Below, piece by piece: positions 15,743 to 34,670 of a stretch of DNA of 64,000 nt. This DNA comes from an uncultured Bacteroidia bacterium. Its GTDB lineage: Bacteria; Bacteroidota; Bacteroidia; Bacteroidales; UBA932. The first letter of the stretch is position 1. The number at the start of each line of letters is the position of its first letter. The stretch lies in the NCBI GenBank assembly GCA_902782225.1, contig CACZMF010000006.1, positions 1 to 64,000 on the forward strand, in the 5' to 3' direction. Position numbers and translations under genes: made by a program. Below the pieces are notes generated by a model that saw nothing but the letters and a program-made list of their open reading frames with translations, searched no databases and was not told where the DNA came from.

Positions 15743-16624
15743 TTATTTCTTGAGCTGGTGGAGGTCCGGGAGGTCGCCGAGGCCGTAGCGGAAGAGGACG
15801 ACGCCTTCGGCCTTGGTGGAGTCGATGAACATACGGCAGTCTTTGAGGATGCTCTCGGCGTCCATCGGGACGACCTTGGTGGAGTCGGTGTCGTAGTAGG
15901 TGGTGAGGCCGGCCCAGACCTTGGCGGGAGCGCCCTTGGTGGCGAAATGGTCGGCGACCATCTGCGCCCAGGGCCTGCCGCCCTTGCGGTAGGAGTCGCA
16001 GTGGAAGTAGATCATCGGCATCAGGATGTCGATGTACTGGCCCATCTGGGCGGGATCCTGGCCGTAGTAGTACTCGCTGTCAGGCTCGGGCATCAGGGCT
16101 GCCGAAAGGATGATATCCGGATTGGCGGCCTTGGTGGCGGCGGAAATCTGGCGGCAGAACTCGGTCACGCAGCCGGTGGCGGTGATTTCCTCGGAAGGAT
16201 TGTGCTTGTGGGCCGTGCCGCCGAAGCGGATGTAGTCCAGGTGGATGCCGTCCACGCCGTAGCCCACGTATTTCACTGCACGCTCGATTACCTCGTCGAA
16301 GTACTCCTGGTCGTAGCAGTTGAGGGAATCCTTCACGGGATTGATCCATTTGCCCTCCTTGTAGAAGGCCTGGAACCAGATGTGGACTTTCATGCCGCGC
16401 TTGTGGGCTTCGCTCACGAAATCCAGGGTAGAGTCGACTCCGTGGCGCTCGAAAGACACTTCGTGGAGGATGATGTTCTTGATGTCCTTGGCGGCAAGGG
16501 TGTCGAGGTTGACCTCGGGCATAAACTTGGACCAGAGCCAGATGCCGTTGAAATTGGGCTCTTCGGCCTTTTTGCAGGATGCAAGGGCCAGCATGGCCAG
16601 TGCAATTACTATGTATTTTTTCAT
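15743..16624 (-). CDS. GHL10-like TIM-barrel glycoside hydrolase, lipoprotein
   Basis: The 293-residue protein is a lipoprotein (lipobox LALASC, Cys17) followed directly by a single barrel domain. Motifs are 'HEVSFERHGV', 'GMKVHIWFQAFYKEGKW', 'YGVDGIHLDYIRFGGTAHKH' with Asp130 at the end of a strand, 'ILSAALMPEPDSEYYYGQD' with Glu180, 'ILMPMIYFH', 'VWAGLTTYYDTDS' and 'GVVLFRYGL'. The DYIRF strand and an acidic residue on a later strand are as in the GHL10/DUF187 family, which includes DigH of E. coli, a hydrolase of denuded murein glycan. From memory, the MPEP-YYYGQD and FRYGL stretches resemble barrels in methanogen wall-associated proteins even more closely. It is a paralogue of the barrel at 22239-23579 and lies 20 bp downstream of the transglutaminase gene. 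Confidence 0.72.
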   Translation of the reverse strand: MKKYIVIALAMLALASCKKAEEPNFNGIWLWSKFMPEVNLDTLAAKDIKNIILHEVSFERHGVDSTLDFVSEAHKRGMKVHIWFQAFYKEGKWINPVKDSLNCYDQEYFDEVIERAVKYVGYGVDGIHLDYIRFGGTAHKHNPSEEITATGCVTEFCRQISAATKAANPDIILSAALMPEPDSEYYYGQDPAQMGQYIDILMPMIYFHCDSYRKGGRPWAQMVADHFATKGAPAKVWAGLTTYYDTDSTKVVPMDAESILKDCRMFIDSTKAEGVVLFRYGLGDLPDLHQLKK

Positions 16625-16644
16625 AAGGAGACGGGGTTAGGGTA

Positions 16645-17745
16645 TCAGAAAGGAAGAGTCTTGTAGCGGCCGTTGAACTTGTTCATGCCTTTCCAGGTAG
16701 GATGGCCCATGGTGGCGCTGTTGTTGGACGGGTCGCTGACCCACCAGCGGCCGCCGGCCCAGATTTCAGGGATGACGTGGCCTATCACGCCGGAGCTGAA
16801 GTAGCACTGGCCGTGCATATAGCGGGCTGGGATGCCGGCTGCGCGGCACATCGCGAGAGTGGCGTGGGTGAGGTCGCAGCAGTTGCCGCCCTTGGCCTGG
16901 ATGGTCTTCACGGAGCCTTTGTGGGTGTTGGCGTAGTCCTCCCACTCCCACTCGTCGCGGGCGTATTCGAAGATGGCCTTGGCCTTCTGCAGGTCGGTGG
17001 CATTCTCGGGAAGTTTCGACAGGGCGGCGTCCTTTGCGGCTATGACCACGGGATCATCGATGTCGCAGTTGGTGACCTTGCGGAGGTAGTCGGAGCCCCA
17101 GGTGCAGACCTTGCCGGGGAACTTAAGGTTGTGCTTGTAATAGTGGAAAGCACGGCACAGGGCGGCGCCGTAGTCGCGGGAGATGAAATTGCCTATGTAC
17201 TTGACCTGGTCCTTGAAGGGGGTGTCGTAGGTGTAGGTGAAGGTGCTGTCCGCTCCGCGGGAAGGGCAGGTGATGGTGCCGAACGACACATAGTTGGGCA
17301 TCGAACCGTTCTTGATGCCGTAGGCGAGGGCCTTGTCGGCCGCCCAGGTGAGGGCTTCGATGGAAATGGAGTCCTGCTCGAAGGTGTTGTTGCCTTCGGC
17401 GCTGCCCCAGGTCATCCTGACCGGCACGTCGACCTCCTCGTCCTCCCAGTGTTCGGGATCTTCCTGGATCTTGCGCAGGAGGGCGCAGGCGGCCGCCATA
17501 TACTGACCCTTGCCATAGAGTATGCCTTCCACGTTGACAGATGCGGGAAGTTCGTCTTTCTCCACGAAGGTCTCGTAGGCCTTGGCCAGTTCTTCGACGA
17601 AGAATCCGTTATAGCGTTTGGCCACGAACTCCTTGGGAGTGTCGTCCGGCTTGTCTTCCGGCTGGTCCGGATTCTGCTTGGGCTGGCAGGCGCAGGCGGC
17701 AATAAGGCTTGCACAGGCCAGCAGGATAAATGCAAATTTCTTCAT
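16645..17745 (-). CDS. pseudomurein-endoisopeptidase-like (C71/transglutaminase fold) lipoprotein with pseudomurein-binding-repeat-like segments
   Basis: I use the ATG at 17743-17745 (an upstream TTG adds two residues), giving 366 residues. The signal ends in a Cys-containing lipobox (SLIAACAC). Residues ~47-93 and ~127-160 resemble pseudomurein-binding repeats: a helix, a 'Pxx(Y)V' turn, then a strand and helix; the second contains 'NGSMPNYVSFG', close to the LPNYV hallmark. The C-terminal ~100 residues are a transglutaminase-like cysteine peptidase: 'GGNCCDLTHATL' (Cys289), 'GIPARYMHGQCYFSSGVIGHV' split over strand and His323, 'GRWWVSDPSN' (Asp338). The YxHGxCYFSSG stretch is, from memory, typical of PeiW/PeiP-like enzymes and methanogen surface proteins. 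These cleave the Ala-Lys epsilon isopeptide bond of pseudomurein. An ordinary transglutaminase-like murein peptidase is the alternative. Confidence 0.75.
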   Translation of the reverse strand: MKKFAFILLACASLIAACACQPKQNPDQPEDKPDDTPKEFVAKRYNGFFVEELAKAYETFVEKDELPASVNVEGILYGKGQYMAAACALLRKIQEDPEHWEDEEVDVPVRMTWGSAEGNNTFEQDSISIEALTWAADKALAYGIKNGSMPNYVSFGTITCPSRGADSTFTYTYDTPFKDQVKYIGNFISRDYGAALCRAFHYYKHNLKFPGKVCTWGSDYLRKVTNCDIDDPVVIAAKDAALSKLPENATDLQKAKAIFEYARDEWEWEDYANTHKGSVKTIQAKGGNCCDLTHATLAMCRAAGIPARYMHGQCYFSSGVIGHVIPEIWAGGRWWVSDPSNNSATMGHPTWKGMNKFNGRYKTLPF

Positions 17746-17766
17746 AATCAATGGTTTAAATTGGGA

Positions 17767-17794
17767 GCAGCAGGGACGGTCAGGTCCCTGCTGC
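17767..17794 (-). promoter_or_regulatory. intra-operon stem-loop between the repeat lipoprotein and the peptidase gene
   Basis: Arms 17767-17777 and 17784-17794 form a perfect 11-bp GC-rich stem with a 6-nt loop, placed in the 69-bp gap between two consecutive genes of the locus. No strong T-run follows on the minus strand, so an mRNA-stabilising or processing element, or partial attenuator, is more likely than a full terminator. Confidence 0.5.
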
Positions 17795-17814
17795 CAAAAG
17801 AGTATCCAGATAAA

Positions 17815-20800
17815 CTATTTCACGACGATGTTGTCGAGATACCAGCGATTCTGATGACGTGCACTATTGGAGACATCAGGATCATTGTTGGTGGGACGAA
17901 TCGTGATACGGGTCGATGCGGTCGCCCCCTTGATCTTCACGGAAGCGTGCTGCCACTCTAGTTTGGTAGGCTTCGTAGTGGGCTGTGCCGACTCTATTTC
18001 CCCACTGGTCTCGGTGCCGGTAGCTTCAATAGTGCCACCACCGCTCACAACCACGGTAAGGGTCATAATGTCCGGATTGTCAGAACCGGTCTTGCACCAG
18101 CACCAGTCGAAGGTAAGCTCGACATCCTTTGCAGCAGTGAGAGACTTAAGGGCGGGAAGAATAATGCCTGAGCTGTATGAAGTCTTACCAAATTTGAGGT
18201 AATACTTGTTCAGATACAAAGTCTGTTTGTTTGCTTCATCCGGGGTGCCGTCGGACCAAGCCTGATCCTTCCATCCCCAGATATATCCATATCCACGGTT
18301 CTGCATTTCAGTCAGGAAAGTGGCGGTCTTCTCGTTGGTGAAAACATTGGGCGAGGAGCCCACCTTGTCGGTGCCTACATCATCCGGAGAATTGGTCTCA
18401 TCGGCCCAAGGCTTGATCCATTCGAAATCATCCTCAAAAACTGCCGTGCCGGCTTCAGGCTCTCCACCCTCGACTCCGAAGAGTTCGGAACGGATTTCCA
18501 GCTCGGCTCCGAGAGCGTCAGCCTTCTCGAGGTTGTGGTCCAGTACGTACTTGAAGAAGTGTGCATAGGTGATCAGAGCGCGCATGGAACTGAAGCAGCC
18601 CTCATAGTCGCTGATGGGATCACGGGGATATGTGCACATGTTGGTGATGGACTGGCCGTGCTGGAAGTTCACGGAACGCTGTGCCCAGTTGTCCAGGACG
18701 CGCATCTCAACCTTGCGGTAGAGCTTGGTGTCGCCGACCTTCTTGCAGAGGTAGCCTCCGTTGGAAGGCTCTGCATAAGGCAGGCTGCCGAAATAGTACT
18801 TGTGGGTTGCGGGCAGTTTGTCCTTCATGGACGCGGGAGTGGCGGCAGGGATCTTGCCGAAGCCGTTCAGCTCGGTCTCGTTGCCGTCGAAGCCGCGGAG
18901 CAGGAGGAAGCTGCGGAGAGCAAGCTCAAGCATGTCGGCGGTGTTCAGGGTGGCGTCACCGACCTTGATGGTCGTGGCCATAGGCACATAGTGGGCGTTC
19001 TCCACGAGAGTCTGGGATGCGGCATCGATTGACTCGGTGTCGCTCTTCTTCACGTAGTCGATGGTGCCGGTGGTCTTCTCCCAGATGTCGAGAATCTTCA
19101 CGTATTCCTTGGCGAAGTCCTCGATGGTGGGCTCTGCCGCTGCAGAGCTCTGACCGTAGAGATCCACATCGAATTTCACGCCGTTGAGTCCGGTGACCAC
19201 CTTGTCGTCGATACCGTTGTCAAGCAGGTACTTGTAGATTCGCATGAGGATAAGGAGCTCACGCATAGGGGAAATGTATCCCACATAGCCGTCGAGGTTC
19301 AGGGTACCGGAAGAGGTGCCGAATTCCTGGTAGTTGCCTATCATTCCGAGAGGGTTGTTGCTGCCCACCTTGATGAAGGAACGGACCACGTGCCATGCAC
19401 CGACCTTGAGCATGAAGCTGAGGTCGACGTCCACGACCTCGAGGCCATGGTTCTTGACGAAATTGTCGCTTTCATACCAAGGGAACTTGCCCCACTGGTT
19501 GTCCTTGCTGGTTTCGGAAATGGGAGCCTTGGACATGGCGATGCCGTCCTGGACAGTGTAGGCCTTGTTGCGGTCGGTCATTCCGTCAAGGAATGCCTCG
19601 CCTTCGGCGGTACACATGTTCAGCAGACCGCGGATAGCGATTTCCCATGCCTGGCTGGAGCTGTACTCCTTGCCCTTCACGTGGAGCTTCCAGATCTTGC
19701 CGGCCCACTTGGGATCATACTGGTTGCCGGGCACCTTGTAGTAATCTCCGGCAGGGTTGCCGACGATGGGGATGAAGTGGACATTCTGCCATGCAGTGCC
19801 GTTGTCGGTGCAGTGCGTGCCGTCTGCATCGACTGTGCCGACGGTGTTCTCCCACACCTGGAGACCCTTCACGAATTCCTTGGCGAAGTCGGCCAGGGTA
19901 GCCTCTTCCTCGATCTGGCTGCCTTCCTCGTTACCGAAGAGCTCGGAATGGATAGGAGTGTCGCCGGGGATGGCGTCAGCCTTTTCGAGATTGTTATCGA
20001 GCATGTACTTGAAGAAGTATGCATAGGTCAGGAGGGCACGGCCGGAACTGAAGCATCCCTGGTAGTTGGTGATGTTGTGGTCGGCACGAGGATAGGTGCA
20101 GAAGTTGGTGATGTTCTTGCCGTGGTTGAAGTTGATGGAGCGCTGGGCCCAGTTGTCGAGGATGACGGGATCCACCACGCAGTGGATTTCCTTGTCGCCT
20201 TCGAGCTTGACAAGGTATCCGCCGTTGCTGCTCTCGATAAGAGGTGAGCCGAAGGAGTAGTCGTGGGTCTTGGGCACGATGGCGTTGATGTCGACGGGAG
20301 TTGCTGTCGGGATCTTGCCGAAGCCGTTAAGCTCCGTCTCATTGCCGTCCCAGCCGCGGAGCAGCAGGTAGGAACGGAGAGCGGTCTCGAGCATGTCGGC
20401 GATGTTGTAGGTCTTGCCGCCCACGACGATGGTCCAGTCGTTGGGGACATAGTGGACGTTTTCGACCACATCATTATCTCCCTCCTTTGCAAGCTCCCAG
20501 TTGGAGAGGCGGTTGATATTGCCCACGTGCTGCGACCAGACGTCGATGATACCGACGTACTGCTCGGCGAATTCCTTGATGGTAGCCTGCACCGGAGCGG
20601 TGTACTTGACCTGGGTGATGACGATTTCAAGGCCTTCGGTGACGTTGCCGCCCTTGACGATGACCTTGCCTTCACGGGCGTCGCCGGTGTTCTCGGCAAC
20701 GGTGATCTTGAGGGTGACGTCGCCGGGTTCGCCGGAGAGCTGGTCAACGGTGATCCAGCTGTCGGATGCGGTGGCGGTCCATGCCTTCTTGGCGGAGAAC

Positions 20801-22197
20801 TTGGCTTCCTTCGTGGACTCTATGCAGTCGAAGTCGAGCTGCTTTGTCTTGAGTTCGATGTCGGGCATGTCGACGCCGTAGAGGTCGTAGTTGAGGTGGA
20901 CGTCCTTCATGGCATCCCACACATTGTCCTCGATGTTGTTGGCGAGCAGGTACTCGTAGAAGCGGGCCATGATGAGGAAGGTACGCATTGCGGAGATGAT
21001 ACCCTCATAGCTGCCGAAATTGATCTTGGCGTCATCTGCACCGAACTCCTGGAAGTTGCCGATGGCCGGAGTGTCGAACTGGGTGCAACGGGTCAGGTAC
21101 CAGCCAAGTTCATGGCAGAGGAACTCTACAGTACAAGGATTGGTTTCGGAGAAGTTTATGATCTTCTTCACGCCGCCCTCGGTGTTCTCATACCAGGGAT
21201 AGGCGTTGAAGCCGGTCACTGTAGCATACTCGGCAGGAGTAGGATAAGGCTCGTTGAGAGACTTACCGTTGCCCATGGTGTGGATGAACGGGTTACGGGT
21301 GGGCTGGAGGAGGCTGGAGCCTTCCTTGGTCACGAGGTCCATGATACCCTGGGCTGCGATGCTCCAGCACTCGGCTGCAGTGTACTCGTGGCCGTCAAGG
21401 TTCACATGGTAGTAGGGCTGGTAGTACTCGCTGTACATGGTGCCGTCCTTGTAGCCGCCGGAGTACTCGATGGGGATGAAGTGGACGTTCTCCCAGGCGG
21501 TGTTGTTTGCGGTGCAGTGCGAGCCGTCGGCGTCGACGGTACCCACAGTCTTCTGCCAGACGTCGAGATACTTGACGAACTCCTTGGCGAAGGCCTTGAG
21601 GGTGTTGGAAGCGCCCTTGTAGTTGGCGGAGATGCTCGCAGGGAGCGAGCCGCCGGCCTTGTACTCCTTCAGGGCACGGCTGATCACGATGGTGGCGCGG
21701 TCGGTCGAGAAGGCGATGGCGGAGCCGTTGCGGGTGAAGTTGGTCTGGTTGGGGACCTTGAGGTCATCCTTCATGCGGGAGAGCATACGGGTGGCGATGT
21801 TCACGAGGTCTTCGGTTTCGTCCCCGTTCTTGGGGCCGCCCGCCATCGCGATCTCTTCCTTGTCGTAGCTGTCCCTTTCGGGATGGTCGGCCGGCTTGTA
21901 GGACATCACTTCGATGTCTTCTTTCTTGCCGGCATTGAGGTTCACCAGTGCGCTGCAGATGGCATACTGGAACTGGGGGACCGTGAAGTCCTTTTCGCCG
22001 ACCTTGAAGGTCGTAGGGAAGGCCTCACTGGATTCCCATTCACTGAAGGCAGCTGCTGCCGCATCCACAATCTGGGAGACGGGGAATTTGCCGATGCTGT
22101 TCTCATCGACAGGGCCCTCTTCCTCCTTGGGCTGGCAGGCCGTGAACGCAAGCGACAGGGCCGCTACGGTCAGTAAGAATAAACGGAATTTTTTCAT
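17815..22197 (-). CDS. 1460-residue repeat lipoprotein with pseudomurein-binding-like modules, BACON and C-terminal beta-sandwich
   Basis: Lipobox 'SLAFTAC' gives Cys21. Residues ~36-195 contain helix-turn-strand-helix units such as 'IVDAAAAAFSEW...FPTTFKVGEKDFTVPQF' that resemble pseudomurein-binding repeats. Four larger modules follow in an ABAB order: A at ~200-445 and ~768-1045 (share 'TVGTVDADG' and 'AW-NVHFIPI'), B at ~539-755 and ~1050-1270 (share 'LLLRG-DGNETELNGFGKIP' and 'DNWAQRS'). A BACON domain lies at ~455-530 ('KAWTATASDSWITVDQLSGE'), and ~1275-1460 is a probable jelly-roll ('FDWCWCKTGSDNPDIMTLTV' to the C-terminus). No catalytic motif is obvious, so a surface glycan-binding protein is most likely. 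It lies between the LTD-GHL10 enzyme (41 bp) and the C71-like peptidase genes. Family calls are by eye. Confidence 0.7.
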   Translation of the reverse strand: MKKFRLFLLTVAALSLAFTACQPKEEEGPVDENSIGKFPVSQIVDAAAAAFSEWESSEAFPTTFKVGEKDFTVPQFQYAICSALVNLNAGKKEDIEVMSYKPADHPERDSYDKEEIAMAGGPKNGDETEDLVNIATRMLSRMKDDLKVPNQTNFTRNGSAIAFSTDRATIVISRALKEYKAGGSLPASISANYKGASNTLKAFAKEFVKYLDVWQKTVGTVDADGSHCTANNTAWENVHFIPIEYSGGYKDGTMYSEYYQPYYHVNLDGHEYTAAECWSIAAQGIMDLVTKEGSSLLQPTRNPFIHTMGNGKSLNEPYPTPAEYATVTGFNAYPWYENTEGGVKKIINFSETNPCTVEFLCHELGWYLTRCTQFDTPAIGNFQEFGADDAKINFGSYEGIISAMRTFLIMARFYEYLLANNIEDNVWDAMKDVHLNYDLYGVDMPDIELKTKQLDFDCIESTKEAKFSAKKAWTATASDSWITVDQLSGEPGDVTLKITVAENTGDAREGKVIVKGGNVTEGLEIVITQVKYTAPVQATIKEFAEQYVGIIDVWSQHVGNINRLSNWELAKEGDNDVVENVHYVPNDWTIVVGGKTYNIADMLETALRSYLLLRGWDGNETELNGFGKIPTATPVDINAIVPKTHDYSFGSPLIESSNGGYLVKLEGDKEIHCVVDPVILDNWAQRSINFNHGKNITNFCTYPRADHNITNYQGCFSSGRALLTYAYFFKYMLDNNLEKADAIPGDTPIHSELFGNEEGSQIEEEATLADFAKEFVKGLQVWENTVGTVDADGTHCTDNGTAWQNVHFIPIVGNPAGDYYKVPGNQYDPKWAGKIWKLHVKGKEYSSSQAWEIAIRGLLNMCTAEGEAFLDGMTDRNKAYTVQDGIAMSKAPISETSKDNQWGKFPWYESDNFVKNHGLEVVDVDLSFMLKVGAWHVVRSFIKVGSNNPLGMIGNYQEFGTSSGTLNLDGYVGYISPMRELLILMRIYKYLLDNGIDDKVVTGLNGVKFDVDLYGQSSAAAEPTIEDFAKEYVKILDIWEKTTGTIDYVKKSDTESIDAASQTLVENAHYVPMATTIKVGDATLNTADMLELALRSFLLLRGFDGNETELNGFGKIPAATPASMKDKLPATHKYYFGSLPYAEPSNGGYLCKKVGDTKLYRKVEMRVLDNWAQRSVNFQHGQSITNMCTYPRDPISDYEGCFSSMRALITYAHFFKYVLDHNLEKADALGAELEIRSELFGVEGGEPEAGTAVFEDDFEWIKPWADETNSPDDVGTDKVGSSPNVFTNEKTATFLTEMQNRGYGYIWGWKDQAWSDGTPDEANKQTLYLNKYYLKFGKTSYSSGIILPALKSLTAAKDVELTFDWCWCKTGSDNPDIMTLTVVVSGGGTIEATGTETSGEIESAQPTTKPTKLEWQHASVKIKGATASTRITIRPTNNDPDVSNSARHQNRWYLDNIVVK

Positions 22198-22238
22198 AAA
22201 AATGAATTTTGAATGGTTGATAAAGTGTTAAATATATG

Positions 22239-23579
22239 TTAGTTCCATAAGTCGTTGATGTCCGGGAAAGTGCCGAGCTGGTAGCGGAAGAGCACGATTC
22301 CCGAGGCCTTGGTTTCGGCCATCAGGTCTATGTCCTTGCGCATTGCTTCGGCAGTCATGCCGTGGGTCGCCGCGTCGTAGGTCTGGATGCCGGACCAGGA
22401 CACTCCGCCGCCTATCTTCGCCTGCTCGGCGTAGTAGTCGGATCGCTCCTTGAACGACTTGTCGCTGAAGTTGTAGGATCCGTAGCGGTAGATCATAGGC
22501 ATAAGGATGTGGATGTATTTCGCCATCTCGGCAGGCTTCTGGCCGTAGGCGGAGCTGGAGTTGGGCTCCGGCATCAGGGCGGCGGAAGTGACGAGACCCT
22601 CGTCGAATCCGTCGCAGATCTCGCGAATCTCGCGGCAGCAGCGGTTCACGGCGTTGACCGAATTGACGGCGTTCTCGCCGACGCCCCAGTTGTGCTTGGA
22701 GGCGGTGCCGCCGAAGCGGATGTAGTCGAGATGGACGCCCTTGACACCCCATTCCTCGAGATAATCGGTAGCTTCGTTGCGTATGCGCTCGTAGACTTCT
22801 TCCTTATAGGCCTTCTTGTCGTCGTCGATGGGGCTGATCCAGCCGCCGTCGTAGAAGCACTGCAGCCACACGTGGACGGCGAGCCCGATTTCGTCGGCTA
22901 TCTGGATGAACTTGATCGCCTGCTGGCGGTAGTTCTTGTTGTGGAAGCCGGCGTAGTTCATGAGGATGTGGTCATAGCCCTTGTCCTTCATCTCGCGCAT
23001 CTTGGCGCCGTTGTCGGAAATCAGGTCGCTGAGGTGGGATCCCCATGCCCACACGGCTGTAGGCCTGGTCTTGGAGAGGTCGAACACCACGTTCTCGCGG
23101 CCGGGGCTGGAATAGGTGAGCTTGCGCAGTGCGCCAGTGCCGTCGGGCAGCCTCTGGTAGCTCGCAAACGCCCCCAGGGGCTTGGCATCTTCGCCGCGTT
23201 CGAATGAATCGACCGGCTTGTCGGCGGCGGGACCGAGCACCAGGGTGAAGGGATCGGCTGAAGAGATGCCGGTCTTGAGGCCGCGGTCGGAAGAGGAGAT
23301 GACCTTGCGCTCCCCTGCCGCCAGGCTGCCGGAAAGGTCGCCGATCTTTTGGCCCTTGAAGTAGGAGTCGGTGATGAAGAACGACAGGCCGTCGAGGGCT
23401 ATGGACTTGTCGGTGGTGTTGAGTATCTCCACCCACGTGTCAAAGCCGTCGGAATTCTCGTGGGCTGCCACTTCATTGATCACCAGGCCCTTGAATGCCT
23501 CCGTGGGGTCGACCTGCGGAACGGGGTCGCAGGCGGCGAGGCCACAGAGGGCGGGAATCAGGATACGGATCAGTTTCAT
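22239..23579 (-). CDS. lipoprotein with lamin-tail domain and GHL10-like TIM barrel
   Basis: The 446-residue lipoprotein (lipobox 'CGLAAC', Cys17) has two domains. Residues ~30-155 look like a lamin-tail domain: 'GLVINEVAAHENSDGFDTWVEILN', 'LDGLSFFITDS', 'GERKVISSSD'. Residues ~168-440 are a barrel paralogous to that encoded at 15743-16624: 'IGLAVHVWLQCFYDGGW', 'WGVKGVHLDYIRFGGTASKH' with Asp285, 'SAALMPEPNSSSAYGQKPAEM' split across the loop, 'ILMPMIYRYGS' and 'GIVLFRYQLG'. Lamin-tail domains often tether or position secreted enzymes. Start overlaps the murQ end by 4 bp. A glycosidase acting on a wall glycan chain is likely; whether it cuts murein or pseudomurein is unknown. Confidence 0.72.
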   Translation of the reverse strand: MKLIRILIPALCGLAACDPVPQVDPTEAFKGLVINEVAAHENSDGFDTWVEILNTTDKSIALDGLSFFITDSYFKGQKIGDLSGSLAAGERKVISSSDRGLKTGISSADPFTLVLGPAADKPVDSFERGEDAKPLGAFASYQRLPDGTGALRKLTYSSPGRENVVFDLSKTRPTAVWAWGSHLSDLISDNGAKMREMKDKGYDHILMNYAGFHNKNYRQQAIKFIQIADEIGLAVHVWLQCFYDGGWISPIDDDKKAYKEEVYERIRNEATDYLEEWGVKGVHLDYIRFGGTASKHNWGVGENAVNSVNAVNRCCREIREICDGFDEGLVTSAALMPEPNSSSAYGQKPAEMAKYIHILMPMIYRYGSYNFSDKSFKERSDYYAEQAKIGGGVSWSGIQTYDAATHGMTAEAMRKDIDLMAETKASGIVLFRYQLGTFPDINDLWN

Positions 23580-24403: not shown

Positions 24404-24405
24404 TT

Positions 24406-26256: not shown

Positions 26257-26259
26257 TAG

Positions 26260-28080
26260 TTATTTCTTGTCATAACTGCTGAAGAAACGTTTTTCGGTAA
26301 TATTGCCGAGTGGCTTGCCGTCGCGGCCGAAGGCGCGGGCCTTGATCACGTCGTCCTTGCCGACCATAAACGGGGTGCCGTCGTAGGCGGGGCTCTGGAG
26401 CGTGGGCTCGGAGCCGTCGAGGGTGTAGTGGACTGTACCCTCGGGATAGTCGAGCTCGAGGTTCATCGGCTTGGGGAACGGGAGGCGGCGGTCGTAGTCG
26501 AAGATCACGTCGTAGTAGACCGGACAGTAGCCTATGTGCTTCATGTCCAGGCGCTTGAGTATCTTCGGCATACGCATGCGGAAGCTCTCCCAGTCCTTGT
26601 TGGGACGGCTGGTCCACGCCACCTCGGAGGCAGCCACGTTACGCGGGAAGGCGAACCATTCGGCCGTCTTGTTGTCGGGAATGTATTCGGTCCAGAGGCA
26701 GGTCTCGTAGCCGATGATGTACTTCTTGCTCAGGTCGGGGATGGAATCCACGGCCGGGTAGTAGTTGTAGACCTTCTTCAGGGGCATAAAGACCTCCTGC
26801 GCCAGGTCATCGGGCTGGTCGTCCTGGTGGTTGTCCAGGTAGCACCAGCGGTTGGGGGTCAGCACCACGCGTATGCCGCGGCGAATGCCGCGCGCCGCAG
26901 GAGCGTGCCCCCTGTAGGACATCGCGATAGGGTCTTCCAGCGCGCCGCCGTCCAGGATTTCATCCCAGCCGATGCAGGTCTTGCCGTGCTCCCTGAGGAA
27001 GTCGCCGATACGCTTCACGAAGAAGGTCTGCAGCTCTTCCACGTTCTTGAGTCCCAGCACCTTCATCAGGTCCTGGCAGTACTGGCTCTCGATGTACACG
27101 TCCTTCGGGGCCTCGTCGCCGCCGATGTGGTAGAGGGGCGACGGGAAGAGTTCGAAGAGCTCCATGAACACGTCCTCGAGGAACTGGAAGGTCTTGGCCG
27201 TGGGGGCGTAGAGGTTCTTCCATATGCCCCAGCGGGTCTCCACCTCGTAGCTGCGCTCCGGGAAGCAGCTGAGCTCGGGGTAGGCGGCGATGGCGGCAGT
27301 GCTGTGGCCGGGGATCTCCACTTCGGGAATCACGGTCACGCAGCGCCTGCGGGCATATTCCACCACCTCGCGGATGTCGTCCTTTGTGTAGTAGCCCCCG
27401 TGGGGGATGCCGTTGCCTATCCAGCTGTGGAAGGCAGTCTCCTTGCGCCAGGAGCCGATTTCGGTCAGGCGGGGATACTTGTCGATCTGGATGCGCCAGC
27501 CCTGGTCTTCGGTCAGGTGCCAGTGGAACATGTTCTGCTTGTGCATCGCCATCAGGTCGATGAACTTCATCACCTCCTCCTTCGGGAAAAAGTAGCGGCC
27601 GCAGTCGAAAAGGAAGCCGCGGTAGGCGAATTCCGGCTCGTCCTCGATAGTGCAGCAGGGCGCCTGCCATTTGACTTTCCGCACCGGAGTGTCGGAGAAA
27701 ATCTCGGCGGGAAGCAGCTGCAGGAGGGTCTGGAGGCCATAGAACGCCCCCGGCACCTCGCTCGCCTCAATGAGCACGCCGGACGGCTGCACCGTGAGCC
27801 TGTAGGCTTCCTTGGCGAATCCGCCGGCCTTGCGCAGCACGATGGCGGGGCCGGGGCCGGTGAGACTGAAGCCCGTGGAGGCCTTCACGGTGGAGGTGAA
27901 GTCTTCGGCAATCTCGCTGAATGCCGGATCTTCGACCTTTATGCCGCTGGTCTTGCCTATAGTGAACACGCCTTCGGCGGGGGTCAGGCTCTTGGGGGTG
28001 GGAACTATGTCATACCTCGGGGGCTGTGAAACGGACGCGCCCACGGTGAGGAGGGTTGCAAGCAGAAGGGAAAGAATCAT
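26260..28080 (-). CDS. GH20 beta-N-acetylhexosaminidase, exported
   Basis: The 606-residue paralogue of the neighbouring GH20 has a hydrophobic N-terminal signal (MILSLLLATLLTVGASVS) without a clear lipobox. Family motifs are 'YRGFLFDCGRYFFPKEEVMKFIDLMA', 'KQNMFHWHLTEDQGWRIQ', 'EVEIPGHSTAAIA' and the catalytic pair in 'HIGGDEAPKDVY', ending in a chitobiase C-terminal-like domain ('VHYTLDGSEPT'). A soluble periplasmic enzyme would complement a lipid-anchored one. It overlaps the ceramidase-like gene by 4 bp and is 3 bp from the second GH20 gene. Both enzymes appear intact. Confidence 0.93.
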   Translation of the reverse strand: MILSLLLATLLTVGASVSQPPRYDIVPTPKSLTPAEGVFTIGKTSGIKVEDPAFSEIAEDFTSTVKASTGFSLTGPGPAIVLRKAGGFAKEAYRLTVQPSGVLIEASEVPGAFYGLQTLLQLLPAEIFSDTPVRKVKWQAPCCTIEDEPEFAYRGFLFDCGRYFFPKEEVMKFIDLMAMHKQNMFHWHLTEDQGWRIQIDKYPRLTEIGSWRKETAFHSWIGNGIPHGGYYTKDDIREVVEYARRRCVTVIPEVEIPGHSTAAIAAYPELSCFPERSYEVETRWGIWKNLYAPTAKTFQFLEDVFMELFELFPSPLYHIGGDEAPKDVYIESQYCQDLMKVLGLKNVEELQTFFVKRIGDFLREHGKTCIGWDEILDGGALEDPIAMSYRGHAPAARGIRRGIRVVLTPNRWCYLDNHQDDQPDDLAQEVFMPLKKVYNYYPAVDSIPDLSKKYIIGYETCLWTEYIPDNKTAEWFAFPRNVAASEVAWTSRPNKDWESFRMRMPKILKRLDMKHIGYCPVYYDVIFDYDRRLPFPKPMNLELDYPEGTVHYTLDGSEPTLQSPAYDGTPFMVGKDDVIKARAFGRDGKPLGNITEKRFFSSYDKK

Positions 28081-29432
28081 AGTGCCTTGGTTATTGTCTT
28101 TTCAATGGCTCCGGCGAAAGCCCCTGGCATTGTCTCCGAGAGCGGATAGGGAGCCTTTATATATACGTGCATCTGGTCGATTTCATACTCGTAGCCTTTG
28201 CGGTATTCGTAGGCGTGGGCGGACGGGAGGTATGAATTCTGGCCGTTGGTGTAGCCGGCGAAAAACACGGTGCGGCCGGGGAATTTCTTCCTGGCTTCCA
28301 TCTGGTACTCGCAGAAGGGCTCGCCCTGGGTGAAGAAGAACACGATACCGCGTATGTTCACGGCACCCATCGTGAAGTCGAGGGTGTTGTGGACCTTGCC
28401 CTGGGCGTAGCGCTCCAGCATCTGGTCCTTCCAGCCGGCGACGTCGTCCTTCCAGGTGGCGGAGACGGTCTTGTCCCACTTCGAAATTTCTTCGGCATGC
28501 TCGATGATGGCCTCCGGGGTCACTTCGGCGATGCGGAACGGGAGCGACACGGTGTCGTTGACCACCTTGAACACGCCGCTTTCCTTCACTGGCTCGAACT
28601 TGACCTTCAGCAGGGAGTCGGCAAGACAGGCGCCGCATTCCTCTGCGTAGTCGGCCATCTTGCAGCCGCGCGCCGGGTCCATGTTGCCGGCAGCGCCTGT
28701 GAGCTGGAACACGTCGCCGCCCCAGGCCCCGCGTAGTATCTTGCCGCAGACGCCGGGATAGTCGGACGACACCAGCAGGCTCCTGGGCCCCATGCACACG
28801 GGGTGGCACGCAAGGTTGACCACCGACACCACGGGCTTGCCGCCCTCATCCAGGAAGCGGGCCACATAGACGTCGCGGTCCACGGGGCCTGTCTCCTTCT
28901 CGCAGCGGTTGGCGTTGATGCTCGTCTGCGCCTTGCCCACCTCCATACGGAAGGGACGGAAGGCGGCCTCGTCGGTGATGGTCTTCACCGCATTGTCCAC
29001 AAGCACCTTGTGGAGCCGCTCCTTATGCGTGTAGTTGCTTCCGCCCGGCTCGCAGCGCCATCCGCCGTTGCGGGGGGCCGAATGGGTGTGGATGCAGTGC
29101 ATGAAGATGCGGTCCAGCGGAAGCCCGCTCTTTTCGGAGATTTCCTTGCGCCATTCCAGGGAAAGGTCGGGGGAAATTTCCATCAGGTCGTTGGAAATGA
29201 TGCACACCTTGTCCGCACCGCTGTCGATGACGAGGCAGTGGGTGTTCAGGGGCATGTGCAGTCCGTCCGAAAGCTCGTTGCGGGCCGCGAATCCGGCCAG
29301 CATCGTGTGCTCGTCGGGCGTCGTGGATATGTCGGCTGCGTTGTAGTTCATTTTCAAGCCGTCTCCCCTGCAGCCGCCGAGGCCGCAGAGGAGAAGGATC
29401 GAAAACGCTGCCAGTACTGGATGCAGTTTCAT
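28077..29432 (-). CDS. neutral/alkaline ceramidase-like lipoprotein (N-terminal ceramidase domain)
   Basis: The 451-residue lipoprotein (lipobox 'CGLGGC') resembles the N-terminal catalytic domain of neutral ceramidases: 'NYNAADISTTPDEHTMLAGFAAR', 'FMHCIHTHSAPRNGG' with histidines for zinc, 'NLACHPVCMG' and 'QLTGAAGNMDPARG'. Many Bacteroidota glycan loci carry such stand-alone domains; their substrates are generally not ceramide and mostly unknown. An amidase activity on an N-acyl or peptide-linked group would fit the locus, which is inference. It follows susD after 1 bp and overlaps the first GH20 gene by 4 bp. Confidence 0.8.
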   Translation of the reverse strand: MKLHPVLAAFSILLLCGLGGCRGDGLKMNYNAADISTTPDEHTMLAGFAARNELSDGLHMPLNTHCLVIDSGADKVCIISNDLMEISPDLSLEWRKEISEKSGLPLDRIFMHCIHTHSAPRNGGWRCEPGGSNYTHKERLHKVLVDNAVKTITDEAAFRPFRMEVGKAQTSINANRCEKETGPVDRDVYVARFLDEGGKPVVSVVNLACHPVCMGPRSLLVSSDYPGVCGKILRGAWGGDVFQLTGAAGNMDPARGCKMADYAEECGACLADSLLKVKFEPVKESGVFKVVNDTVSLPFRIAEVTPEAIIEHAEEISKWDKTVSATWKDDVAGWKDQMLERYAQGKVHNTLDFTMGAVNIRGIVFFFTQGEPFCEYQMEARKKFPGRTVFFAGYTNGQNSYLPSAHAYEYRKGYEYEIDQMHVYIKAPYPLSETMPGAFAGAIEKTITKAL

Positions 29433-29433
29433 T

Positions 29434-31488
29434 TTAGTAAATGTAGCCGGGGTTCTGGACTATGCGTCCCTTGGTCTTGTCGATTTCCGTCTGGGGAATA
29501 GGCATCAGGTAGTTCGGATAGTCCTCGGGATTCTCGAGGCCGGGCTTGTTGGAGCACTTGATCACGCCGGTGGGGCGGACGCGGTTCTTGTTGGGGAACC
29601 ACTTCTGTGTCGGGGAGATCGTCAGGCAGCACTCGCCGTAGTCGACCCTGTAGGTCTTGCCCTTCCATTCATAGTCGACGAGGTAGAGCACGTCGTTGCC
29701 ACGGTTGGAATCGATGTAGGAGGTGCGCTCGCTGGTGTTGGCCCAGTAGTAGTTGAGATCCTTGTTGCTGAGGTCGAACGGCTGGACGCAGCGGTACATG
29801 GTGTCGGGCTTTGCGCCGCCGGTCAGCAGCATGGTGCGGGTGCCGGCGAAGGGCACGTTCTCATAGCCGACCGCAATCTTGAGGCGGCGGGTGTCGAAGT
29901 AACGGAAGGCCTCGAAGGCGAGCTCGATACGGCGCTCGTTGACCAGGCGGTCCCAGAGGTCGTCGCCGGACTCGGTCACGGGCGGCATCTTCACGTCTTC
30001 ACGGCTGCGCACCTTGTTGATATACTCGCGGCACACATCGAATTTACCCAGATGCCAGGCAGCCTCTGCGAGGTTGAGGTACATCTCGCCCATGCGGAAC
30101 CATGGATACATCACGTTGCCAATCATGGAGTCGGAGATGTATTTGTCGGGCATGTACCACTTGGTCAGGCCGCTGCCGCCGGTGTTGGTGATGTGGATCT
30201 GGTCGCTGGCTTTCTTGGAGGGCAGCCAGTCGGGCTTGCCTTTGGCAAAGTCGGCACGGGTGCCGGTGGTCACGTAATCGCCCACTTTCTGGTCTTTTTC
30301 GAAGAGCAGGTAGAGCTGGAGGGGATCCTCGCGGGGCTTGCCTTCCTTGTCCGTCCACTTGTAGATTTTCCTCGGATAGATGATGCAGTGGGAGAAGCGG
30401 GGATCGCGGCCCTTGAACGGGATGGCGGGATCGTAGCCGGAGCCTTCTTCGAAAATCTTCTTGCCGTTGGCCATCTCGTAGTCGAGCCACATAGCCTGGG
30501 TGGGGTTGAAGCTCTCCCAGCCGCCGCCGCCGAAGTCCATCAGGGAGTAGAGCAGCTGGGCCTTGTGGGGCTGGTTACTGCTCTGTACGAAGTACTTGGC
30601 CCAGATGACCTCGGGAGAGTTGATGTCGCGCCAGAAGCCGTCATAGGTGTCGTCAAGCTGGTAGACTCCGTCCACGTCGGCACGGTCGCATATGGCCTTA
30701 GCAGCCGCATATGCGTCTTCCCATTTCTTCTCTGAATAGGCTCCGCGGAAGATGCCTCCCTCGGGATGAGTCGGGTCGTTGAACAGAGGGGACGCCACGA
30801 TGAGGGTCATACGGCAGCGGAGAGCGAGCACGCAGTCTTTGTGGACGCGTCCGAGAGCCGCACCGCCCTTGTCGGGGAGGAGTTCATAGGCCTTGTCGAG
30901 GTCCTCGTTGATGAAGGTCACGCATTCGTCGAACGGGGCACGCTCCTCAGCGAAATCGGCGCCGATATCATCGTGGGGCTTGTCCACCTTCACCACGCCG
31001 CCGTAGCGTTCTATGAGGTTGGTGTAGGCCCAGGCGCGGAGGAAGTAAGACTCGCCGAGCAGGCGCGACTTGGTGGATTCCGACATGGCGGAGCCCTTTT
31101 CCTCGACGTAGCGGATGAAGTAGTTCAGGCGGTAGATGTATTCGTAGGCACGGTTCCAGATGTTGAGGAAGGTGGTACGGGTGTTGTGGGCCGGACCGCC
31201 CTCATCCATGGGGATGATGGAGCTCGGCGTCATGGAGCCGTCGGCGATGTAGCGGGTGGAGGTGCCGCCGTAGCGGAAGAAACCCTCATCGGAGATACAG
31301 CCGATGTTGCCCTCCGTGAACGGGTCGGGCATCACGGTGTAGATGGCGTTGACGTAGCTCTCGGCGAGGGCGTCGCTGTTGAACACGGCCTCTTCGGAAA
31401 GCTTGTCAAGGGGTTTCTTGTCCAGGAACCCGTCGTTGCAGGCAGTCAGGACTGCGGCAAATGCAAGAATAGAGAATATCTTTTTCAT
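29434..31488 (-). CDS. SusD/RagB-family glycan-binding lipoprotein
   Basis: The 684-residue lipoprotein starts MKKIFSILAFAAVLTAC and continues 'NDGFLDKKPLDKLSEEAVF', a classical SusD N-terminus. Helical TPR-like repeats follow ('RAYEYIYRLNYFIRYVE', 'ESYFLRAWAYTNLIERYGGV'), and the C-terminal part has 'NLAEAAWHLGKFDVCREYINKVRSRE' and 'LVNERRIELAFEAFRYFDTRRLKIA', the conserved family end. It forms the lid on the SusC transporter, whose gene ends 12 bp upstream. Ligand is not deducible; in this locus a wall-glycan fragment is expected. Confidence 0.95.
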   Translation of the reverse strand: MKKIFSILAFAAVLTACNDGFLDKKPLDKLSEEAVFNSDALAESYVNAIYTVMPDPFTEGNIGCISDEGFFRYGGTSTRYIADGSMTPSSIIPMDEGGPAHNTRTTFLNIWNRAYEYIYRLNYFIRYVEEKGSAMSESTKSRLLGESYFLRAWAYTNLIERYGGVVKVDKPHDDIGADFAEERAPFDECVTFINEDLDKAYELLPDKGGAALGRVHKDCVLALRCRMTLIVASPLFNDPTHPEGGIFRGAYSEKKWEDAYAAAKAICDRADVDGVYQLDDTYDGFWRDINSPEVIWAKYFVQSSNQPHKAQLLYSLMDFGGGGWESFNPTQAMWLDYEMANGKKIFEEGSGYDPAIPFKGRDPRFSHCIIYPRKIYKWTDKEGKPREDPLQLYLLFEKDQKVGDYVTTGTRADFAKGKPDWLPSKKASDQIHITNTGGSGLTKWYMPDKYISDSMIGNVMYPWFRMGEMYLNLAEAAWHLGKFDVCREYINKVRSREDVKMPPVTESGDDLWDRLVNERRIELAFEAFRYFDTRRLKIAVGYENVPFAGTRTMLLTGGAKPDTMYRCVQPFDLSNKDLNYYWANTSERTSYIDSNRGNDVLYLVDYEWKGKTYRVDYGECCLTISPTQKWFPNKNRVRPTGVIKCSNKPGLENPEDYPNYLMPIPQTEIDKTKGRIVQNPGYIY

Positions 31489-31500
31489 ATCAGGTTCGGA

Positions 31501-34500
31501 TTAGAAGGTTACTTTGACACCGAAGTTGAAGATCTTGACCTGGGGATAGGTCTGGTAGCCTTCGTCGCTGGTCTCAGGGTCGATGGTCTTGAGTTCGGAG
31601 AAGGTCAGAAGGTTGTAGCCTGCAGCGTAGAAGCGGATGTTCTTGATGCCGATCTGGTAGCCGAACACGTTGCCGGGCAGGGTGTAGCCAAGTTCGACGT
31701 TCTTCAGACGCAGGAAGGCCGCATTGCGGTAGTAGTAGGAAGTACGGTACACGCCGCCGTTGCCGATGTTGGAGGCGATACGCGGGTGGTCGGTGTCGGG
31801 ATTGTCAAGCGTCCAGGCGTTGACTGCGGCATCCGCCTCGATGTTGCCGGACACGGGGTCGGTAAGAGGTGCGTAGTAGTAGCGCGCACGGCCCTGGCCC
31901 TGGAGGAGGATGGAGAGGTCGAAGTTCTTCCACTGGAGCTCGCTGTTGAGACCGAAGACTATCTGGGGCACTGCGGTCAGGTCGCAGCGGAGGCGGTCCT
32001 GGGAGTCGATTATGCCGTTTTCGTCGAGATCCTTGAAGTAGAAGTCACCGAGACCTGCGCCGGCCATCTGGAGATGCTTCTCAAGGTCTTCGTTGGTGCG
32101 GTTGATACCCTCCACCTGGTAGATCAGGCTGGCTCCCATGGGGTGGCCGGTCCTGTTCATGTACTGGTGTTTCTCGTCGTAGGGGGTCTCATCCATGTAC
32201 TCGATGGTGTTCTTCGCGTACATGATGTTGCCGGCCACGCGGTAGCGGAGGTCGCCGCCGAGGGCCTTGTTCTCATGGGTGAGCTGGAGCTCGACACCCT
32301 TGTTGGACACGATACCGATGTTCTCGTCGGGCAGGTTGCCGGTGAGGCCGGTGTAGTACGGCACGGAGGCGTTGCGGGTGCAGAGGATGTTGCTTCGGCG
32401 GGTGTGGAAGAATTCGAGTTCCCATCCGAGGAGGCCGTGGTTGATGTTACCGTCCAGACCAAGGTTCCAGGTGCGGGCCACTTCCCAGGTGATGTTGGCG
32501 TTGGGCACGCCGTCGGGAAGGATGAAGTTGACTTCCTTGCCGTCGTAGAGGGCACGGTAGGAGGTGCTGGTGGTGTAGGCGTAGGTGGCCAGGTACTGGA
32601 ATGCATCCACCTGGTCGTTACCCTGTTCGCCGTAGGAAGCGCGGAGCTTGAGGTTGGTCAGCCAGGGCACGTTGTTCTTGATGAACGGCTCTTCGGAAAT
32701 ACGCCAGCCCACGGACACTCCGGGGAACACGCCCCAGCGCTTGTCGGCGGGGAAGTTCTCGGAACCGTCCCAGCGCACGAGGGCCTGGATCATGTACTTG
32801 CTCTTGTAGTCGTAGCCGGCACGGGCGAAGAAGGAGCGGCGGGCGGTCTCGGCTGCGTAGCCTCCGATTTTGTAGAAGGACTTGTCGGCGTTGCCGGCGA
32901 AGAACTGGTCAAGGATGTCGGAGTCGTATTTCTCGATGTTGGCGTTGAAGCGGTCGCGGCGGAACTGGCTCTGCTCCATACCGGCGAGGGCGCTCACGTG
33001 GTGGTCACCGAAAGTGCGGTCGTAGTTGATGTTGGCATTGACGGTGATGGTGTGGTAGTTGTTCTGGCTCTCGTTGAGGGTCGGGGTCGTGAACACGCCG
33101 CTGTCCCTTTCGCGGTAGGTCTCGGTGATCTCGTCGTAGGAGTAGCACGGCCAGTTCTTCGACCAGTTCTTGTTGAAGTTGTTGTGGACGTCGTAGGCCA
33201 GCACTGCGTTGACGGAGAGTCCCTTGGTGATGGCGTGGAGGTCGTAGTTGCCGCGGAATGTGGTGTTGATGGTGTTGTAGGTGGTGCGGTCATAACCGGT
33301 CAGGTCCTGCACCAGGGCTGCGGGGTTGGAGCCGCTACGGATGTAGCCGTTGGGATAGTACGGCGCGCTGGAAGCGTAGCGGCGGGTGGTGATGTAGAAG
33401 ATACCGTAGGAGTCCGACGGGTAGGCCGAGTAGTTCTTGTGCTGCTGGCGGACGTTCAGGTCGACGCCGAGCTTGAAGTCGTTGGTCACCTGGATGTCGA
33501 TGTTGGAGCGGACGTTGTACTGGTTGTAGTTCGTAGCGGACTTGACGTAGATACCGTCCTGGTACTGGCCGTTGAACTGCACGAAGTAGCTGACCTTGCC
33601 GGCACCGCCCTGCAGGCTCACTCCGTATTTGTGCTGGGAGGAGAAGGGCTTGATGATTTCCTTGAACCAGTCGGTGTTGGGGTAGTTGATGGGGTCGTCC
33701 TGGTCGATGTAGTGCTGGATCTGCTCCTGGGTGTAGATCGGGGATGCGCCGGTGATTGCGCGCGCTGCGTTGTAGGCTTTGGCGAACTGCACTGCGTCGG
33801 CCATCTTCAGGAGGCGGGTCGGCGACTGCATACCGTAGTCGTAGGTGAAGGTCACGGTCGGGGTGCCGTCGGTGCGGCCGCGCTTGGTGGTGACGAGGAT
33901 GACGCCGTTGGCGGAACGGGCACCGTAGATGGCTGCGGATGCATCCTTCAGCACGTTGATGCTCTCGATTTCCTCACCGGTGAGGCGGGAGAATTCGTCG
34001 CCACGTCCGGGCACGCCGTCGATGATGATGAGCGGGGAGTTGTTGCCGAGGGTGGAGCGGCCGCGGATGTACATCACGGCATCGTCGCGTCCGGGCTCAC
34101 CGGAACGGTTGTTGACGATGACGCCGGACATACGGCCGGCAAGACCCTGGGAGAGGTTGACTGAAGAGTTCTTCACAAGTTCCTCGCCGGAAGTGGAGGT
34201 CACGGAGCCGGTGAGGGTGATCTTGGACTGCGTACCGTAGCCGATAGCCACGGCTTCGTCGAGGACGAGGGCGTCGTCCTTGAGGGAGAAGTCCACGGTG
34301 GTGCGGCCGTCCACCCTTGTGGTCTGGTCTTCATAGCCCATCAGGCTGGCGGTGATGGTCGCTTTAGGGGAGACGTTGCTCAGGGAATAGCGTCCTTCCG
34401 CGTCGGTCATTGCACCGTTCTGGGTGCCGTCCACGATGACCATTGCGCCCGGAAGAGCTTCTCCTTTGCTGTCGGTCACGCGGCCCTGCACCTTGATGCG

Positions 34501-34584
34501 GCTCTGCTGGGCCAGTGCGCCGAACGACGGCCCGGCAAGCAGCGGCAGGACTGCAAGCAGGATAAGGAATAGTTGTTTTTTCAT
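31501..34584 (-). CDS. SusC/RagA-family TonB-dependent outer-membrane transporter
   Basis: The 1027-residue protein has a signal peptide, a carboxypeptidase-D-like domain ('VQGRVTDSKGEALPGAMVIV ...'), a TonB-box-like region ('VLDEAVAIGYGTQSK'), the plug with 'LSQGLAGRMSGVIVNNRSGEPG' and 'LIIIDGVPGR', 'INVLKDASAAIYGARSANGV' and a beta-barrel ending in 'NFGVKVTF'. These are all SusC hallmarks, and the length is standard. It is the first gene of the long leftward locus and pairs with the SusD protein 12 bp downstream. It imports oligomers released at the surface using TonB energy. Confidence 0.97.
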   Translation of the reverse strand: MKKQLFLILLAVLPLLAGPSFGALAQQSRIKVQGRVTDSKGEALPGAMVIVDGTQNGAMTDAEGRYSLSNVSPKATITASLMGYEDQTTRVDGRTTVDFSLKDDALVLDEAVAIGYGTQSKITLTGSVTSTSGEELVKNSSVNLSQGLAGRMSGVIVNNRSGEPGRDDAVMYIRGRSTLGNNSPLIIIDGVPGRGDEFSRLTGEEIESINVLKDASAAIYGARSANGVILVTTKRGRTDGTPTVTFTYDYGMQSPTRLLKMADAVQFAKAYNAARAITGASPIYTQEQIQHYIDQDDPINYPNTDWFKEIIKPFSSQHKYGVSLQGGAGKVSYFVQFNGQYQDGIYVKSATNYNQYNVRSNIDIQVTNDFKLGVDLNVRQQHKNYSAYPSDSYGIFYITTRRYASSAPYYPNGYIRSGSNPAALVQDLTGYDRTTYNTINTTFRGNYDLHAITKGLSVNAVLAYDVHNNFNKNWSKNWPCYSYDEITETYRERDSGVFTTPTLNESQNNYHTITVNANINYDRTFGDHHVSALAGMEQSQFRRDRFNANIEKYDSDILDQFFAGNADKSFYKIGGYAAETARRSFFARAGYDYKSKYMIQALVRWDGSENFPADKRWGVFPGVSVGWRISEEPFIKNNVPWLTNLKLRASYGEQGNDQVDAFQYLATYAYTTSTSYRALYDGKEVNFILPDGVPNANITWEVARTWNLGLDGNINHGLLGWELEFFHTRRSNILCTRNASVPYYTGLTGNLPDENIGIVSNKGVELQLTHENKALGGDLRYRVAGNIMYAKNTIEYMDETPYDEKHQYMNRTGHPMGASLIYQVEGINRTNEDLEKHLQMAGAGLGDFYFKDLDENGIIDSQDRLRCDLTAVPQIVFGLNSELQWKNFDLSILLQGQGRARYYYAPLTDPVSGNIEADAAVNAWTLDNPDTDHPRIASNIGNGGVYRTSYYYRNAAFLRLKNVELGYTLPGNVFGYQIGIKNIRFYAAGYNLLTFSELKTIDPETSDEGYQTYPQVKIFNFGVKVTF

Positions 34585-34626: not shown

Positions 34627-34670
34627 ATGTTTTTTTAGAAAAATACATATATTTACGACTATAATAATTG

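Follow-up and report, generated by a model that had tools for sequence, protein, structure and literature searches.

We analysed a 64,000-nucleotide window of an uncultured Bacteroidia bacterium (contig CACZMF010000006.1 of assembly GCA_902782225.1, forward-strand positions 1 to 64,000; contig C6 of the 2.58-Mb host genome), which carries a run of 18 minus-strand genes extending from the start of a SusC gene at 34584 to a GDSL-type gene ending at 5013. An earlier note, made from the letters of this DNA, had proposed that the upstream part of this run, 15743-34584, is a utilization locus for pseudomurein, the wall polymer of methanogens. The run begins with a SusC-type TonB-dependent outer-membrane transporter (31501-34584; TIGR04056, 882.6 bits) and a SusD-type surface lipoprotein (29434-31488; SusD_RagB, E 5.6e-43); their adjacency, with glycan-active enzymes in the same run, identifies it as a polysaccharide utilization locus. 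Profile matches confirm that two GH20 beta-N-acetylhexosaminidases (26260-28080 and 24406-26256; Glyco_hydro_20, E 2.9e-103 and 9.7e-120), a large lipoprotein (P0002, 17815-22197) and a transglutaminase-fold peptidase lipoprotein (P0001, 16645-17745; Transglut_core, E 2.3e-18) share this strand, as the note had it. Intergenic distances from SusC through the protein ending at 15743 are -4 to 69 bp, in line with the overlaps and gaps mostly under 70 bp reported before, and because of this tight spacing we infer a single transcript. An inner ATG was chosen as the start for two genes of the run. The arrangement is not due to chance, since 12 loci, several of them truncated, show the same gene order on 11 other contigs.

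The peptidase P0001, numbered here from a TTG at 17751, carries three repeats resembling the pseudomurein-binding repeat (PMBR; residues 45-219, 17095-17619) N-terminal to a transglutaminase-fold catalytic domain (16648-17088). The limits of the repeats come from the secondary structure of an AlphaFold model (pLDDT 80.5), which shows three helix-strand repeats ahead of the catalytic core, and we call them PMBR-like since they do not exceed the Pfam cut-off. Nine of the 17 bacterial peptidase sequences that we aligned match PMBR at E<=0.1, the best at 1.7e-5. Cys291, His325 and Asp340 are invariant in all 17 and are also aligned in the lysin of Methanobacterium virus Drs3. PeiW and PeiP have a common Cys-His-Asp triad and cleave the Ala-epsilon-Lys bond (PMC4592898). 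In a Foldseek search of the PDB, the top match of the P0001 model is PeiP (8z4f_A, E 2.9e-9, 340 columns), with a Cytophaga cysteine protease second (3.4e-7) and PeiW chains at 1.7e-3 and weaker; among viral models, PeiP is again the best match (E 1.3e-9). Identity to PeiP in the fold alignment is 15%. The connection between P0001 and PeiP runs via the Drs3 lysin, which finds PeiP by blastp at E 5.8e-9, via a profile comparison of the Drs3/bacterial peptidase alignment (probability 51) and via the fold. Together, sequence and model suggest that P0001 is a PeiP-like endoisopeptidase related to methanogen-virus lysins.

The viral relatives of the peptidase are few. Among 50,697 phage records, P0001 matches six at E<=0.01: two are the "pseudomurein-binding repeat protein" of Drs3 (E 9e-22), two belong to vir080, a Methanobacteriales virus (2e-4), and the remainder come from two contigs named Acinetobacter phage (1e-4). 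One of these, a 232-kb "Acinetobacter phage MD-2021a" contig (CAKLQH020000004.1, L080), has a proteasome-like gene and alr; it therefore looks chromosomal, and the record is probably mislabelled. For plasmid transglutaminases, the best value is 2e-7 among the 20 of 58 matches listed. Drs3 is 38% identical to P0001 over 148 columns of the catalytic part and has PMBR in three stretches (E 2.7e-17); its C71 match, at 20.7 bits, is just under the cut-off of 22. Scans of viral contigs with P0001, the bacterial peptidase alignment (A1), Drs3 and the alignment including Drs3 (A2) found no relative, and a degenerate DNA pattern search of viral contigs led to two viral lysins, vL082 and vL083. The former adjoins a gene that matches methanogen viruses only (4/4 records); of the neighbours of the latter, two had no match and one weakly matches a Methanomicrobiales virus.

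The 17 bacterial and three viral peptidases form a clade (support 100/99), one that holds against three plasmid transglutaminases only, because the vir080, Methylomonas and Acinetobacter rows and three family rows were dropped from this tree; PeiP is in neither of our trees. The first tree, with more outgroups, is dominated by long branches and places the three family transglutaminases and a Methylomonas plasmid row among the bacterial rows with poor support. In the 100/99 tree, the viral rows are interspersed with the bacterial ones, at modest support, bacterial monophyly is not rejected (p-AU 0.35), and transfer from virus to bacteria and the reverse are both compatible with it. An association of PMBR with a transglutaminase domain is also reported for adhesin-like proteins of M. 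smithii and M. stadtmanae (PMC11532034); if the gene was donated at all, its source may therefore have been other than a virus. PeiW-like genes are reported to be frequent in human-gut archaeal viruses (PMC9800368).

The neighbouring lipoprotein P0002 (1460 residues) is a candidate wall-binding protein, with a triple PMBR-like region at its N terminus (residues 22-196, 21610-22134) and, over 18469-21702, the modules m1, BACON, m2, m3 and m4. The repeat modules of the earlier note are thus borne out as four mutually related modules plus a BACON domain: m2 and m4 agree at 57%, m1 and m3 at 37%, and other pairs at about E 5e-14 to 2e-7. This kinship is seen after cutting P0002 into pieces; self-BLAST of the whole protein shows no repeats. 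Module number and type vary among its relatives. By hhalign, the P0002 N terminus matches the peptidase repeats at E 7e-14 over 161 columns, and on this sequence comparison the two are homologous. A Foldseek search of the PDB with the modelled N terminus, which the earlier note had suggested as a check, puts PeiP or PeiR chains in the first four of 33 places, weakly (E 1.0e-3, 0.52, 1.0 and 1.1) but uniformly. P0002 is present in exactly the 5 of 149 genomes of our family sample that hold a full-length peptidase; because these represent only two genera, they are not five independent cases. Further copies of P0002 modules lie outside the locus (G000:C29:7014-10600 and G000:C15:66323-67018; L107 and L108), the stretch on C29 containing an in-frame stop. 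The C-terminal 206 residues of P0002 match an unannotated human fecal phage contig, MT835678.1 (L081), at 27.5% (E 3e-13); module m4 is also matched by PHROG 27353.

Two further proteins flank this lipoprotein-peptidase pair. The lipoprotein at 15743-16624 is a candidate glycosidase of DUF4015/GHL10 type (DUF4015, 33.5 bits; cut-off 27). The protein at 22239-23579 combines a lamin-tail-like domain with a DUF4015/DUF4434-type region and is a candidate glycan-cutting enzyme; its matches are all under their cut-offs (DUF4015, 21.3 bits), and it is a conserved neighbour of the large lipoprotein in related loci. Of the two GHL10-like barrels described earlier, one is therefore supported above the cut-off and the other falls below it.

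A scan of named genomes found the 12 loci on 11 contigs noted above, each under a Bacteroidales or Bacteroidia title. Rumen or omasum (goat, water buffalo, water deer) is mentioned in five of the titles; another five carry the RUG series, which we take to mean rumen uncultured genomes, and two give a run number alone. In our order sample, the peptidase is found in 1 of 295 genomes (E<=1e-10), the host itself. The family sample holds full-length copies in five genomes, and three weak matches there cover part of the catalytic domain. The phylum sample yielded no copy in 394 further genomes at E<=1e-15, where scoring took in no more than five first-look candidates for each genome among the matches listed. 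Gene order in the named loci is conserved as far as each stretch reaches. MurQ', the divergent MurQ-like gene of the run described below, is seen in seven of the 12; L012, L013 and L019 start downstream of its expected place, and L018 and L021 have a SusC/SusD-DUF4015-lipoprotein set without an internal MurQ' or GH20.

The downstream continuation to 5013, together with the MurQ-like, ceramidase-like and amino-sugar kinase genes and the transporters and peptidases, was not part of the earlier description, and it allows a possible pathway to be laid out. We infer the cell location, substrates and all activities of the locus proteins, a surface location being suggested by lipoprotein-type signals with acidic residues after the cysteine. 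At the front end, the PMBR-like modules of P0002 would hold wall material at the cell surface, P0001 would cut peptide cross-links, and the two DUF4015/GHL10-type proteins are candidate backbone enzymes; SusC and SusD would then import wall fragments. At the back end, the GH20 enzymes would take off terminal N-acetylhexosamine, and a neutral-ceramidase-like protein (28077-29432; Ceramidase_alk, 31.5 bits, under the cut-off of 32.1; no relative at E<=0.1 in a PDB sequence search) is a candidate amidase that may free the peptide from the sugar. A NagP-like MFS transporter (12356-13546; NagP_SO3503, 270 bits, under the cut-off of 625) would import amino sugars, to be converted by a MurK/NagK-like amino-sugar kinase (13555-14403; PDB relatives named N-acetylglucosamine kinase and putative N-acetylmuramic acid [MurNAc] kinase) and by MurQ', a divergent MurQ-like sugar-phosphate etherase (23576-24403; PRK05441.1, 284.6 bits, cut-off 168). 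The run also encodes a C45/AAT-like autoproteolytic hydrolase (11232-12359; NF040521, 47.9 bits, under the cut-off of 85). Uptake and handling of the peptide product may fall to a fusion of an M20 amidohydrolase and a C1/PepC-type peptidase in one 891-residue frame (7223-9898), a glutamate-symporter-like (GltS-like) protein (9901-11235; Glt_symporter, E 9.5e-20) and the sodium/alanine symporter AgcS (5830-7221; TIGR00835, 463.8 bits). In G387 (L068), the M20 and C1/PepC-type parts are two separate pieces.

We consider methanogen pseudomurein, alone or together with murein, to be the target of the front end with a probability of roughly 0.55. Among the evidence in favour are the clade shared with lysins, the PeiP-like fold and the homology of the two sets of repeats; marginal Pfam scores, and MurQ- and MurK-like genes that fit muramic acid, pull the other way. 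Methanobrevibacter walls in the rumen consist of pseudomurein. PMB domains bound methanogen cells (PMC3124540). The pseudomurein of M. ruminantium is described as containing N-acetylgalactosamine (GalNAc) (PMC2812497). The GH20 enzymes are compatible with either wall, as are the Glu- and Ala-type symporters and the peptidases. A more far-reaching version, speculative and to our minds rather doubtful, is that this is the first bacterial nutrient locus for archaeal walls: gut Bacteroidales would have recruited a methanogen-virus (or methanogen) lysin to their outer membrane, would grip pseudomurein with the modular PMBR-like lipoprotein, sever the Ala-Lys cross-links and take in N-acetylglucosamine (GlcNAc)/GalNAc-talosaminuronate fragments, and the MurQ paralog could act on talosaminuronic acid by eliminating its 3-O-linked hexosamine, in place of the lactate that is eliminated from muramic acid.

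Several observations weigh against pseudomurein as the target, and some of them concern the front end. P0001 has a single PF09373 match (residues 128-157), at 18.2 bits (E 2.6e-3), under the gathering cut-off of 24.9, and does not match Peptidase_C71 (PF12386) at E<=1. PMBR is not matched in P0002 at that threshold either, and Pfam finds none in the N-terminal parts of 12 homologues. The profile check thus returned a below-threshold repeat in P0001, but no C71 domain there and no PMBR in P0002. At E<=0.01, PMBR is matched in 8 of 393 genomes of the same order and 6 of 149 of the family, the host included in both, and the family scan misses all four of the further genomes with the peptidase; because chance matches reach the level of P0001, we rejected the single Pfam match as proof. 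The two PMBRs of PeiR, an active rumen-virus lysin, are reported to score E 0.11 in Pfam (PMC6189367). Direct BLAST of P0001 against PeiP gives E 0.11, and the two structures superpose with TM-scores of 0.28/0.34 and a full-length root-mean-square deviation of 15.5 over a multi-domain model, for which reason the ranking and span of the fold match were used rather than global superposition. The earlier assignment to a C71-like peptidase hence stands in its transglutaminase fold, its top fold match and its place in a lysin clade, but not in the C71 profile, and we name P0001 PeiP-like rather than a member of C71. In two of the three viral relatives (vL082 and vL083), PG_binding_1 takes the place of PMBR. 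PMB motifs are moreover reported in three bacteria (Xanthomonas, Granulibacter and Novosphingobium), and PMB domains bind lysozyme-treated L. lactis and E. coli spheroplasts (PMC3124540), so that a murein target retains a place among the candidates.

The remaining counterevidence lies in the back end. MurQ removes lactate from MurNAc-6-phosphate. Pseudomurein contains no muramic acid; its talosaminuronic acid has no lactyl ether and bears a carboxyl at C6, and we know of no pathway for this sugar. MurQ' and the MurK/NagK-like kinase point to the muramic acid that pseudomurein lacks, and the sugar genes of the run fit muramic acid or GlcNAc. MurQ' scores 234.6 bits against TIGR00274, under the equivalog cut-off of 302; another murQ of the genome, of more canonical type (G000:C28), reaches 299.4 bits, marginally short of the same cut-off, and adjoins a second murK-like gene. 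E80 and E108, the counterparts of the two catalytic glutamates of E. coli MurQ, are conserved between the two paralogs. MurQ' is well conserved, at 80-98% in five named loci and 68-87% in the four other family genomes with the peptidase. At >=60% identity to the MurQ' of the run (P0004), 10 of 149 family genomes have it; five of these also have the peptidase, and the other five lack it. In these latter five, sister stretches of 19-20 kb group MurQ', kinase, ceramidase-like protein and GH20, and in none of the five stretches was the peptidase, the large lipoprotein, either DUF4015 protein or GltS matched; the C45-like hydrolase is present in three, the MFS transporter in three and an adjacent divergent SusC match in four. 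The L066 stretch has a single GH20 (GH20b is missing) and no adjacent divergent SusC match. Peptidase and lipoprotein are also absent from the whole genomes of the five carriers, with one weak transglutaminase match in G358. Compared with nine canonical MurQ rows (the canonical rows from G305 and G392 were left out), hallmark residues of MurQ' such as G70, N83, S137 and C203 are identical in 12/12 sequences from loci with the peptidase and 5/5 without, which argues that the back end was not made for pseudomurein. On these comparisons, it is separable from the lysin-like front end and probably older. Other large open reading frames occur in the sister loci L062, L063 and L064; L062 has an 841-residue GH18-GHL10 fusion and an N-formylglutamate-amidohydrolase-like protein.

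These sister loci and the MurQ- and MurK/NagK-like genes are what make the strongest competing explanation, that the locus serves murein only. The PMBR-like repeats and PeiP-like fold would then have been turned to bacterial walls, with their GlcNAc ends and peptide cross-links, and MurQ' and the kinase would burn muramic acid; we rate this somewhat below even odds. The protein at 15743-16624 weakly matches Cwp19, a peptidoglycan enzyme, over 26 residues (E 0.087), and the spheroplast binding mentioned above points in the same direction. Yet a PMB domain failed to bind purified murein (GEM) particles in the same study (PMC3124540), and the combination of PMBR with a transglutaminase-fold peptidase is otherwise found, in our searches, in a methanogen virus and reported in methanogens (PMC11532034). 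MurQ', moreover, is distinct from the second murQ that the genome carries and for that reason need not act on plain MurNAc-6-phosphate.

The lysins to which the pair is related are also compatible with a different role, in which it is mainly a weapon or an attachment device against methanogens (or bacteria) housed inside a nutrient locus, wall feeding being secondary. Across the same loci, the large lipoprotein and the peptidase have diverged faster than MurQ', and this, like the shuffled modules of the lipoprotein, would suit such a function. Tight spacing with SusC/SusD and uptake genes makes it improbable, as does the arrangement in L021, where the peptidase stands behind a SusC/SusD-DUF4015-lipoprotein set that directly precedes the full locus L017 in tandem on the same contig (JAFRSW010000022.1), tying the lysin-like pair to import. 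The simplest account is a muramic-acid/hexosamine salvage locus to which the PeiP-like peptidase, the PMBR-like lipoprotein and the DUF4015-type enzymes were added in one gut Bacteroidales group, since this fits both the lysin kinship and the facts about MurQ' and its sister loci.

An ATPase_2-type gene (14414-15670) splits the DUF4015 protein from the kinase; it is present among the compared named loci in L015 alone (74%) and its product is probably outside the pathway. The run ends in a GDSL lipase/esterase-like protein (5013-5843). On the plus strand, one frame adjoining SusC (34668-35987) weakly matches peptide methionine sulfoxide reductase and a GAF domain. Outside the run, a GH92 enzyme with an F5/8 type C domain (38105-40783, plus strand) is preceded by a 418-residue protein that has no Pfam match.

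If methanogen walls are indeed the target, bacteria would graze on methanogens via a lysin-like enzyme in a feeding locus; some of the turnover of methanogen biomass might be accounted for in this way, and the new enzymes would have relevance to methane mitigation. Should the target be murein, this would still be an unusual Bacteroidota muramic acid locus, with a peptidase subfamily whose nearest relatives found are methanogen-virus lysins. To our knowledge, pseudomurein is opened only by viral and methanogen enzymes. We found no publication that describes a pseudomurein utilization locus, in agreement with the earlier note, in a search that covered titles and the starts of abstracts and left most subscription journals and bioRxiv-only work outside it.

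Compared with known systems, the peptidase resembles PeiP and PeiW (MEROPS C71) in its N-terminal PMBR-type repeats, C-terminal transglutaminase-fold domain and Cys-His-Asp residues, but is a bacterial lipoprotein encoded beside SusC/SusD, with three repeats rather than four and no Pfam C71 match. Drs3 ORF_00035 is closer still, with three PMBRs, the same catalytic subfamily at 38% identity and the same C-terminal LPF end; it is viral, however, and lacks both a lipoprotein signal and linked sugar genes in the stretch examined. For the back end, the nearest parallel is murT-murK-murQ of Tannerella forsythia, a Bacteroidota cluster that supplies a transporter, a kinase and MurQ for the use of exogenous muramic acid (PMC7670621), whereas MurQ' is a divergent paralog and its genes stand with SusC/SusD, GH20 enzymes and a lysin-like front end. 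The locus as a whole shares with Bacteroidota polysaccharide utilization loci a SusC/SusD pair, surface-type lipoproteins, GH20 enzymes and an MFS transporter in one run, and differs from them in that its candidate binding protein has PMBR-like modules.

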